64,000 nt of DNA, from the NCBI GenBank assembly GCA_963669155.1, contig OZ022589.1, positions 3,909,680-3,973,679 of the forward strand, written 5' to 3'. The stretch's first letter is position 1. Each line of letters starts with the position of its first letter. This document shows, in pieces, positions 52,901-58,900 of this stretch. The position numbers and the translations under genes were made by a program. This DNA is from Arbacia lixula. Taxonomy: Eukaryota > Echinodermata > Echinoidea > Arbacioida > Arbaciidae. The notes under the pieces are model-generated. The model was not told where the DNA came from, did not search any database, and worked only from the letters and a program-made list of their open reading frames with translations.

Positions 52901-55900
52901 AAAGGGAAAACAATAACAAAGTAATGATAAGTTTTTTTCGCAAGGTATTGTGATCATGTGTACATATGTTATTGAATCAGTATGGTGACAAATGAAAATT
53001 GCCATATCCAAAAGACTTAAGCAAAAGGCATTTTCATGTGTTTATTTTCATGTGGAAACATTCCGTGCAAGTAAGTGCCTTGTTGGTTGATTATGGTACA
53101 TTTTGTTTGTTAATTAAGAAACTATAGTATGGATAATACATGTCATCAGAAAGATTTTATAAGAAATTCAAAGTAACAAAAATATCCAAGACAAGTTGTC
53201 AGGGTTAAAGTATGAGTTGTCATAAATAAAACATGACAATATGAATTGTAAGTGTTCAAACATAAAATTATGATTGTTCATAATGCAGTGAAGGTGAACA
53301 TCTTTATTCAGGTAACTTTAAATGTTTGAAAATGTAAAAGAAAAATTTGCTACGGCAATTTTTTTTTTTTTTCATGGGGGGAAGTGTTATAAATTTGTGT
53401 AAGTTATAGCTATACATGTAGCCATTAAATGAGGTACAGTCTATGTGCTTGCGCAATTCCTCCTTGGTGAAATAAACAATGTGCAATGTGCAAAATTATT
53501 CAACCCCCTATTTTACACGCAAGAAATTAATGCACAAATAATGACAATGTAAAAGCCAGTGCATATATTCTGAGGTGAATGCTGATTTTATCCTCAACCT
53601 GAAAATGGAACCTTTATGCACAACTAACAAGTTGTAACATGATTCAACCCAGAGGGGTGTGTCTTTCAGTACTTTGTGCAACATCCATTTGCTGCAATGA
53701 CCTCCTGCAGACGAGATGAATAGCCTCTCACAAGCTTCTCACAACACTCCTTGGGGATTTTGACCCATTCCTCTTGCGCAATGGTCTAAAGGTAAGCGAT
53801 GCTTGTAGGTCTACGTGCTGCAGCAGCTTTCTTCAGATCCCACCACAAAATTCTCTATTGGGTCTAGGTCTGGAGACTGTGATGGCCACTCAAGGTGTGC
53901 AAGAGGAATGGGCCAACATCCCAAAGAAGCATTGTAAGAAGCTTGTGAGAGGCTATTCATCTCATCTGCAGGAGGTCATTGCAGCAAATGGATGTTGCAT
54001 AAAGTACTGAAAGACACACCCATTTGCTGCAAACTTGTTAGTTGTGCATATAAAGGCTCCATTTTCAGGTTGAAGATATATAAAATCAGCATTCACCTCA
54101 GAATATATGCACTGGCTTTTACATTGTCATTATTTGTGCATTCATTTCTTGCATGTAAAATAAGGGGTTGAATAATTTTGCAACATGCTTTTTGGGCGCA
54201 AATTGCAATTTCAGATGAACTATGAAGTAAAATTTGTTTTTTTTTTCTGCGGTATTCTTTAGTAATTAACTGTTATTCATCATCATTATTCATCATCATT
54301 GGAATGTGGGAATAAGAGGAGAACTGAGAGTTTGAGACAGAGCGAAGTACAAAGTGAAAGTGTTACATGCAAGGCATAGTTGAAACTTAGAGGAGCATCA
54401 CACAAAGATACATGTAATATGGATGTGCAATATATCTCATAGCAATCATATAGTTCAATACACTACAGCTCTAGACTTAAAGAAAACCTTACAAAATTAA
54501 TAAAGTAAATGGAAGCATGACGGTCAATATACTTAAGATAAAATCTATTGTCAACGTGTGTATTGTGAGGCCTGTTTTTAAGTTCATGAACTCATTTTGA
54601 GCTTCAGTTAGTAACCAGGGATGACATATTCCAGAATTATGGAATGAGTTGCATAACACACCATCTTGTTGAAGTTGTGGACCAGTGTTCATTGTTTTAT
54701 ATAAGAGTCTTATTGCAGTGAGTTGATCATTGTTTGTTTTAAATATGTTTGTGCCACTGTTGCATCTTTGTACAAATGATACCGCCAGTTCCCATAAAGA
54801 AGTCCATAATCTGGCACAGAAAGAGTTTAATTGCTGACTTTCTACTTTGTCTTTGTCTTTGTCGTTACCAGCGTGAAGAAAGAGGAAGAAGAGGAGGAGA
54901 AGGAAGTTAAGAAGCAACCCATCTCTCTGGAAGAGATGATCGCCAAGAAGAATGCAGAGCAGGAAGCCTTGGCCAAGGTAAGACCAGGTCAAAGGTCATG
55001 TTCCAGATTTGATCTCAATTTCAGCCGTATTCTTCTCTTCCTTTTGGCTGGAGAAAAATCATGCAAATGAGGTACAGAATGCATGATCGACATTCAATAC
55101 TGGAGGTTGTTCTTTACCAGCCCATCTGCCTTACAGAGCATTGTATAGAGTACTGAAGTGTGACGTCATATGAGCATGTTGTCAAGACGTGTGGTTCAAA
55201 CTATGTGGGTGTAGCAAACAGCAGTGATCTTAGCAGGGTCTCTCAATGAGATGTCTAGACACTACATGTATACTACAATGGGTTAAACAACACAACTTCT
55301 GTACTCTATTCTGATATTTTAATTACTGTTCGTCAGCCAAAGTTCCTGATGGAGGGGGGGGGGGGGGGGGGCGAGTGAAAAACAGTGCTAGAATTTGTTT
55401 TTCCTCGACAGCAATGCAAAGATGATGATCATCTTTGTTGTTCTGCTTCATAAAACAGAAGCGTACTGAGCGTAAACAAATGACTATATTTGTTTGCTCT
55501 TGTTTGTCAGCCTAAATTCCTGATGAAGGAAAAGCAAGCAAAACTAGCATGTGAAGTTTTTGTTCTCAGGCAGCAATTCTGTCTTCCAGAGCTGATTCAA
55601 ACCAACATAATTTTCATTTTCTTCCAGCTTGTCAGTCAAATTTCAAATGAAGAGGGAGTTGTTCTCAGGCAGAAATCTGCTTTATAAAATGAAGCATACC
55701 AAATGGAAATGATCATATTTGCTTGTCATTGTTTGTCTACCAAATTTTATCATGAAAGAGGAGCAGGCTATTTAGTGACAAAACAGAATCAAATTGAGCT
55801 TTTAATAAGCTTATTTGTATTACTCTTTAATACCACTTGTCAGCCCAAGCTCCTGATTAAGGAGGAGTGAGTGAAGCTGGCCCTAGTGACAAAACAGAAT

Positions 55901-58900
55901 CAAACTGAGCTTTTCATCATCTGATTTGTATTACTCTTTATTACAATTTTCAGCCTAAGTTCCTGACGAAGGAGGAGTTAGCGAAGCTGGCACAAGTCAA
56001 AACACAGAATCAAACTGAGCTTTTGATGATCTTATTCATATTATTCTTTATGACCATTTTCAGCCCAAGTTCCTGACGAAGGAGGAGCGAGCGAAGCTGG
56101 CTCTTGAGAGGCGACAGGCCCAGGTGCAAGCCCAGAAGCAGGCGGTTGAGGAAGCTCGGCAGAAACAGATGAGCTTTGAGAAGGAGGCTCAGCAATCCTC
56201 TGGTATGTAATCTGAGGCACAGATCAAATGAAACCACCCAGCACGAAACCCACAAAAAGTTGCGGGGTATGATTTTCTGTAAATAGACCAAAATATGTCA
56301 TTTTGGTTGACCACATCAAATTTTTGAGGTTTTGTCCTGTCTGAAAGAGTGAACATTCCTCTACCTGCTGTCAAAATTTTATGGCATAAAATGAAAACGA
56401 AACTGAGATATTAGCAGTTATTGGATGATAACGCGGTCAACTGCTTCTGGGCTACTTAATAGCTCTTTATCGATTAGGCGGGCGGGTCCTTGTAGAGCTA
56501 CATGCATGCGTGCATAAAGCAAATCGTAATTGTTTAAGACTTTGAACAGAATTGTTCACTTGCCGAATAAACAGAATCTTGAATTAAAATACCCTTCTAA
56601 AAAAAACGTTCACTGATTACAAGAACCTGCAAGTAATTCATGTCCACATTTTGAAAAGAAGAGAATCGAACTCTACCAGCCTACCAGACAGTCAGAATGG
56701 TTAGGAAAGATAACAGCAAGGGCCGCGCATGATACCCGCTTGCTTTGGCAGGATGCTGTGAATAGTGAATAAACCTCAGTGAATAAACAATTTCAAAAGA
56801 ACGACAACCTGCCGAAAACAGGATCTTACATTAAAATACCCACGTTAATGATAATGAAGTGTTCTCTTTATTTGTTGTTAGTAAGAATATCCGCAGTGCA
56901 CTGCGCAGTGCAGACTATACTTAAAGGGCATATACTGTACTGGGAAGGCTAAAAAGCCTTCAAAAGGTAATTGTTAGCAATCTTCTTGCCAATGGTCTTA
57001 AATTCATGTATTGTCCATTTTAGAAGCTTGCTGAAAGTTATTTGCCCTGAAATGATCTACATATGGAGTAATGAGTGATTAAACCACAAATCCTTTAAGA
57101 CCATTGGCAAGAAGATTGCTAACAATTACCTTTTGAAGGCTTTTTTGCCTTCCCAGTACAGTATATGCCCTTGAATTTACTTACTCTGTTATGTACGGTA
57201 ATTTATGTACGGTAAATATCCATTTCGATTAATAATATAAAAAATTATGCCATTTCAAATGCACATTAAAATATATTTGCTATCTTAACATATGATGACA
57301 TATTTGGTGCCCCGGGGGTACCAAAAGAAAAATCACCATTTTGTTGAATTATTTATTTTATTTTTTGCAATGTACCCTGGGTTACCAAAAAATGTGTAGA
57401 AGTAATTTTTAGTGTTTTGTACAGATTTTATTTTCTTGTTTGTGATCTTATCTAACAATAATGCATGCAAATGATAACTTTATTTTTATTTTCATGTTCT
57501 GTTCTAATCTCCTTTGTTCAATAATGATACCTGTAGTTCAGGGATGCCAACCTTTCAGAGCATATATCAGTAATCATAAGACTAAAAATCAGTAATTTGG
57601 AGACAAAATCAGTAACTTTCTGCACGCAGGCAAGCTCGGCTCCCGCAAATTACATGTTATCAAATTTAAAAAGGTAATTTCATTCAACTAAAAATAAGGG
57701 TATCGATATTCGGTTAAAACAAAATCTGAAATTCCGTTTCATCTTGCCTGGAAAGAAAAAAGTTTGTTTAGCCATAGACTGGTAACACAAGAAAAGTGAC
57801 AATTCCATTTTGTACAGTCATAAATATGTCGTTTTTTTGCTGGGCAATCAACACTAAAATGATGAAGGTAGCAAGTCTAAGCCTGTGACTAAACAAATAT
57901 TATCCAGTCGAACCGAATACTAAATAGATCTACTCAATTGCCAACAGTCGGCAGCTAGTGTAGTAGCACTGCAGGCAGCCACATAGACCAGCCCGCTCAC
58001 TGCTCCTGCTACGCAGCCACATTGCACCGTCACACTATGAGCATAAGTCTAGCTTTCCTTCCCCAGAGTTCTGGGGGAAAACTCAGCTATTGGTAGGGGT
58101 TAAACAATCATAAATTTTCTGCTTTTTTCTTCTTTCAAATGAAATGGAAATGTTCTTAAAACAACATGACTATGATTATAATGCACCATAAATGATATTC
58201 TAGTGTTATACACTTGCATTCCAGATCTCAGTTTCTTCCTATCTAGCAGTAATTTGAGGCGAATTTCTGCTAGCGAAGCTCTCTTTCTCTGCTGGGCATA
58301 CATGTATGCATACACGTACAATACACACAGTCAGAATACACAGACACACGCACGATAGTGATCACCATATATAACTGTACACTATTACGACATGAGATGG
58401 CGCTGTACAACGCTGTACCCCGGGGTACAACGGAACCCTGGTGTACCGCGTGGTGCATCATATCTTATTTAATCGAGAAATATTCTTTATCATGTCTTTT
58501 CAAATATTTTTGCCTCATTATTTTCCGAGCGGGAGTTGACCGAAGTAAGCATCTTACCATAGGCATATAAATGAGTACAGCCGAGTTGTGTGCTTGCAAG
58601 CACCGAAGAACTGCACGTTGCTGCCAGTTTGTCTGCATAATGATATTGCGGATCCAGATTGGTCTGGGCATGGGCGGAGGGCGGGAGCCGGGCTGGCCAC
58701 GGGGCCGGGGATCCGGGGTATTATTCATCACAACAATAAAAGCGAATGGGGGATGCTGAGATGCACTAAAAAAATTTTTTTTAAATGCGGGACATCAGGA
58801 TTTTGATTGATTAAGGGTAATCATTGATTACCGGTAAGGGTAATCATTGTTTACCGGTAAGGGTAATCAAGTGAAGATCCTGCTTTTTGTTTGGTCTTCT

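Follow-up and report, generated by a model that had tools for sequence, protein, structure and literature searches.

We analysed a stretch of 64,000 nucleotides (nt) from the echinoid Arbacia lixula (assembly GCA_963669155.1, contig OZ022589.1, positions 3,909,680 to 3,973,679 of the forward strand; hereafter the window), part of which is occupied by DDX23/Prp28, the joined exon translation scoring 446.8 bits against human DDX23. In the 1086-nt intron between the exons at 54872-54977 and 56064-56202, the acceptor and the first ~20-45 nt of the downstream exon are repeated upstream in six copies, four of them clear (55954, c1; 55844, c2; 55511, c5; 55337, c6) and two weak (55740, c3; 55636, c4); the working exon itself is referred to as unit c0. 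The original prediction, made from the letters of the sequence, had described copies across this stretch at a spacing of about 104-125 base pairs (bp), with an oldest gap of 174; copies were recovered at the coordinates it gave, with spacings of 174, 125, 104, 104, 110 and 110 bp from c6 to the working exon. It had also given each of the six a 3' splice site; the number of copies stands, but AG is present in 5/6, c3 reading CTA in place of CAG, and two of the six are weak. Self-comparison further shows that the similarity extends well beyond the pyrimidine tract and AG to which it might have been limited: in c0, c1 and c2 the repeated unit is ~110 bp long and consists of ~65 nt of intron end and ~45 nt of exon start. 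The copies, which cover intron end and exon start together with the 3' splice site, lie head to tail, with a 110-bp period in c0, c1 and c2 and distances of 104-174 bp among the others.

These repeats stand out from the surrounding sequence to differing degrees. We searched both strands of the window with a 22-mer composed of CAG and the first 19 exon bases; it matched at 21/22 positions at 55951 and at 19/22 at each of 55841, 55508 and 55334, and the best match outside the copies reached 16/22. By this measure c3 and c4 are not above background, neither being among the sites with at least 14/22. In pairwise comparisons evaluated with 500 dinucleotide shuffles, where the segments compared for non-neighbouring pairs were ~200 bp long and included parts of the next unit, no shuffle reached the observed score for c1-c0, c2-c0, c2-c1, c6-c5, c5-c4, c5-c3, c3-c1 and others; the score was reached by 1 shuffle for c4-c3, 4 for c4-c1, 22 for c3-c2, 23 for c6-c4 and 36 for c6-c3, and the pairs c4-c0 (147/500) and c4-c2 (165/500) were not significant. 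The original prediction held that the farthest copies keep only CAG and a short stretch of exon; c6 in fact continues past its G tract as GCGAGTGAA, which by eye resembles the exon sequence GCGAGCGAA. A genome search with the region returned a single match, itself, in 607 Mb.

A second edge of the same gene is duplicated as well. The end of a later DDX23 exon and its donor recur on the intron side, and this copy (62809-62892) is supported by an E-value of 8.7e-08 over 85 nt. Self-comparison of the whole window, with long minisatellites omitted, revealed no further duplicated DDX23 edges at the placed exons, and in the part of the gene downstream of the window (locus L062, exons placed by eye) there were local repeats, none of which was seen to span an exon edge. 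This downstream part also holds a tandem array at L062:2151-3273, with a 157-bp period and copies 85-95% identical.

We then surveyed 108 loci of the same genome chosen by their matches to DEAD, protein-kinase and helicase-C domains (handles prefixed L), each of which was compared with itself, the flagged ones being read by eye. Tandem copies spanning an exon edge were recognized by inspection at 8/108 loci, on nine edges (five acceptor and four donor), in every case on the intron side. The proportion is rough and may be low. The 108 loci do not all represent separate genes: L059 and L063 fall on a single exon, L013-L016 appear to be almost the same sequence, L012, L022 and L103 are clustered within 4 kb, and L004 is DDX23. 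In some cases the match sits in a long open frame where no edge comes into range. Inspection of L002-L102 was confined to repeats reaching to 60 bp or less from the domain match, and L103-L110 were judged from the repeat list. Candidates not counted were L008 and L070, where repeats lie near an edge and do not span it, L108, a dispersed repeat pair away from edges, and L046, a borderline 35-bp acceptor copy (E-value 0.001, by eye). The original prediction considered the array especially relevant in a gene that itself helps to choose splice sites; the presence of the same architecture in kinase genes and other helicases leaves a meaning specific to DDX23 unsupported, and its array looks like one example of a recurrent pattern at a locus that appears ordinary for this genome.

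Table 1. Exons and copied exon edges in DDX23 (window coordinates) and at the surveyed loci.
Feature	Position	Strand	Description
DDX23, upstream exon	54872..54977	+	ends in phase 0, ..EALAK then gtaaga; joined translation matches human DDX23
DDX23, copy c6	55337..55380	+	CAG kept; G tract interrupts; 16/19 exon-start bases
DDX23, copy c5	55511..55550	+	CAG kept; 16/19
DDX23, copy c4, weak	55636..55658	+	CAG kept; 8/19 ungapped; supported against c5 and c3, not against c0
DDX23, copy c3, weak	55740..55768	+	acceptor AG gone (CTA); 12/19
DDX23, intron-side part of the ~110-bp unit, three nearest segments	55773..56063	+	66-nt family at 55773, 55884 and 55994; 88% and 79% to the first
DDX23, copy c2	55844..55885	+	CAG kept; in-frame stop after 8 codons; 16/19
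DDX23, copy c1	55954..55995	+	CAG kept; 18/19
DDX23, working exon (unit c0)	56064..56202	+	acceptor CAG 56061-56063; donor gtatgt at 56203
DDX23, later exon with duplicated donor edge	62437..62662	+	..VGYK then gtatgt; donor at 62663
DDX23, intron-side copy of exon end and donor	62809..62892	+	..KVGYK then gtatgg; 169 bp downstream; 82% over 45 nt
L012, vasa/DDX3-like, acceptor			108-bp period; four decoys with AG, partial fifth without
L024, DDX46-like, acceptor			61 bp; two decoys
L098, presumably MAP3K4-like, acceptor			one decoy
L101, MAP2K4-like, acceptor			two decoys, one without AG
L104, taken to be DDX59-like, acceptor			two decoys, exact AG uncertain
L104, donor			two decoys
L064, CDK11-like, donor			one decoy
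L094, presumably NLK-like, donor			two decoys; best solved structures MAP kinases
L109, DDX41-like, donor			92 bp; two decoys

Several of the surveyed loci showed features of their own. At L012, whose best solved structures are BMVLG (205 bits; presumably Bombyx vasa-like), vasa (201) and DDX3X (200), three older decoys within L012:1030-1555 have in common a group of exon-side changes absent from the newest decoy and from the working exon, and the intron ends of the decoys are nearly identical, both judged by eye. The donor of the DDX46-like exon is soon followed by a CCAT array of ~600 bp (L024:1698-2304). At L104, the introns on either side of a single exon hold tandem copies of its two edges, acceptor and donor.

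The pattern of divergence within the DDX23 array is not the steady gradient from nearest to farthest copy that the original prediction described. From c1 to c6, 18, 16, 12, 8, 16 and 16 of the first 19 exon bases are identical to the working exon, the farthest copies, c5 and c6, equalling the second-nearest, c2, and the middle ones, c3 and c4, being the worst; the corresponding matches in the last 20 intron bases are 17, 12, 8, 10, 10 and 9. All these counts are ungapped, and a one-base offset on the intron side of c2 lowers its figures. In c5 and c6 the exon start is better preserved than the intron end, plausibly because the working exon has been slow to change under coding constraint while the rest has drifted; c3 and c4 depart from what a simple clock would give. 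A tree of the units groups c0, c1 and c2 (85% bootstrap, with 52% for the order within this group) and places c5 with c3 (82%); with units this short, support is modest. The direct repeat between c5 and c3 has a spacing of 229 bp, which, taken with their grouping, suggests that at least one step of array growth probably duplicated two units. Growth by repeated tandem duplication, as originally proposed, is thus well supported, but the simple one-by-one movement away from the exon that accompanied the proposal is not.

We favour the explanation, to which we assign a probability of roughly 0.78, that short tandem duplication happened to span exon edges and was tolerated as the exon-proximal site was the one used, with the decoys decaying afterwards. 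A ~110-bp segment over the intron-exon boundary would have been duplicated several times, probably with at least one multi-unit step, and slippage or unequal exchange may be the source of such recurrent short tandem duplication. At each duplication the outer copy would remain intronic, a decoy 3' splice site, and the copy joined to the exon body would stay the working one. The exon-proximal site would be expected to win under exon definition in a long-intron gene, and transcripts from leaky decoy use would be cleared by nonsense-mediated decay; the decoys would be nearly neutral for these two reasons and would subsequently decay by mutation. PMC9225289 reports that large flanking introns lead to preference for the sites closest across the exon and short introns to preference for those closest across the intron; the large-intron rule would make intron-side decoys nearly harmless.

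Three points weigh against this explanation. First, we infer from the reading frame alone that the acceptor at 56061-56063 is the one used. Second, the exon start is better kept in c5 and c6 than in the nearer c3 and c4. Third, the splice dinucleotides of the decoys lean towards retention over free decay: AG or GT was kept in 19/21 aligned cases, where neighbouring dinucleotides would predict 15.7 (P 0.06, not significant), in a test that dropped ten alignments missing the dinucleotide, in which c3, c4 and c6 (below the score cut) and the DDX59-like acceptor array were absent, and in which copies within one array are not independent. These aligned decoys, taken across arrays, accordingly give no sign that decoy splice dinucleotides have been selectively removed.

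One may postulate instead that the decoys are regulated poison acceptors, the premature stop that follows their use tuning the level of DDX23 through nonsense-mediated decay, perhaps in an autoregulatory manner. The frame entered from each of the six copies, five of which have an AG, does reach a premature stop after 4 to 58 codons; the c1 acceptor is the same as the working acceptor at 17/20 of the last intron bases and differs at only 3, and the retention of dinucleotides across arrays is what this scenario would lead one to expect. The stops are weak evidence of function, however, because extensions of 110-727 nt usually contain one by chance; moreover, the AG of c3 has been lost, arrays of this type are also seen in unrelated kinases, and the retention falls short of significance. 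We consider regulated poison acceptors unlikely, although the similarity of the sites makes it possible that the decoys compete in splicing or act as poison splicing to some degree.

Local duplications are common elsewhere in this genome, and their distribution bears on a further alternative, namely that short tandem duplication arises preferentially at splice edges, perhaps owing to an effect of replication or transcription at pyrimidine tracts or donors. Such an effect might account for nine edges in eight loci, with two more in DDX23, and for the duplication of both edges of one DDX59-like exon. Local duplications were found in 28/60, 13/40 and 4/8 of the survey loci, and those less than 400 bp apart account for 5.5% of the bases flanking the domain matches and 1.5% of the bases inside them; coverage of the whole window is 12.5%, minisatellites included. 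When coverage was binned by distance for 103 loci (L013-L016 and L063 omitted), with match ends taken as a proxy for exon edges, 150-bp bins as far as 600 bp from the match gave 4.4 to 7.0%, and there was no rise towards it: the pair of bins beside the match stood at 6.0% and 5.2%, and the first 40 bases inside at 4%. No enrichment of duplications beside the exon matches was found in these 103 loci, where they occur at roughly the background rate, and no clear purging either. Match ends are only approximate edges, but coverage that does not rise from 600 bp to the domain match leaves a hotspot at splice edges a decidedly improbable explanation.

Two other possibilities carry very little weight. 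An assembly artefact or collapsed haplotypes would have nothing in their favour beyond the repetitive nature of the region, and are scarcely credible for copies that differ by ~12% or more from the working copy and for a region with one genome match, inside a 23.5-Mb contig. An origin from earlier mutually exclusive or cassette exons, now reduced to remnants, would explain why the copies include exon sequence, yet the units hold the exon start only, and 55300-56300 contains no donor-like GT with at least 7/9 consensus positions except the real donor at 56203, a GTGAGT seen by eye in c2 lying below this cut; because the array has no other donor by the 7-of-9 rule, the copies are edges rather than exons, and such an origin is very improbable.

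Tandem duplication that happens to cover exon edges, the explanation we favour, invites comparison with several known systems. The DDX23 array resembles minisatellite-like short tandem arrays in its head-to-tail, diverging copies of a ~110-bp unit and in the presence of other arrays and local duplications in the window and the genome; what sets it apart is a unit that includes the edge of a working exon and, with it, a 3' splice site. NAGNAG tandem alternative sites have acceptors spaced a few bases apart. They are alike in presenting neighbouring competing acceptors (PMC8055015), whereas the spacing in DDX23 is ~110 bp and the origin lies in segment duplication. In the accounts of intron gain by tandem duplication, duplication likewise introduces extra splice sites: a tandem genomic duplication carries splice sites in the potato RdRp case (PMC4974935), and in Drosophila premature stops and decay are suggested to play a role (PMC2891723). 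DDX23 differs from both in having no visible new intron, the extra sites being decoys in an existing intron that were amplified into an array. The cis-competition constructs of Reed and Maniatis, as described in PMC9225289, also set competing sites at different distances within one transcript; the DDX23 array is natural and partly decayed, and its used site is deduced from the reading frame. We found no description of exon-edge arrays of this kind in the literature, in a search of titles and abstracts that covered few subscription journals.

Extrapolating the survey proportion (~7%) to the whole genome, we tentatively suggest that there may be thousands of such exon-edge echo arrays, tolerated through exon definition, some of them perhaps serving as poison sites, maybe including that of DDX23. 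If so, this class would be expected mainly in genomes with long introns. Near-identical tandem splice sites in natural genes amount to ready-made cis-competition experiments: consistent use of the exon-proximal copy would back, for many endogenous genes together, a proximity rule centred on the exon, and leaking decoys would provide a gauge of splicing error and of how far decay clears it. Gene prediction in the same genome could also be led astray by copies of exon edges.

Additional features were observed elsewhere in the window. The first DDX23 exon that could be placed lies at about 49658-49921, and between it and the exon beginning at 54872 there are retroelement-like open stretches at 51036-51692 and 52362-52814, integrase-like and reverse-transcriptase-like by eye, which we take to be of the Ty3/gypsy type. 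The same short peptide is open on opposite strands at 53511-53738 (-) and 53938-54168 (+), which suggests an inverted repeat within this same DDX23 intron. Minisatellites at 6368-6985, 21909-22936 and 28808-29703, have related ACCCACTCCACCC-type units, as judged among the 150 repeat rows listed of 198, and the 30-bp unit at 28808-29703 looks by eye like the reverse complement of that at 6368-6985. Outside the placed exons, a 117-bp segment is duplicated at 20275-20391 and 20427-20543, the two copies lying 152 bp apart and being 90% identical.

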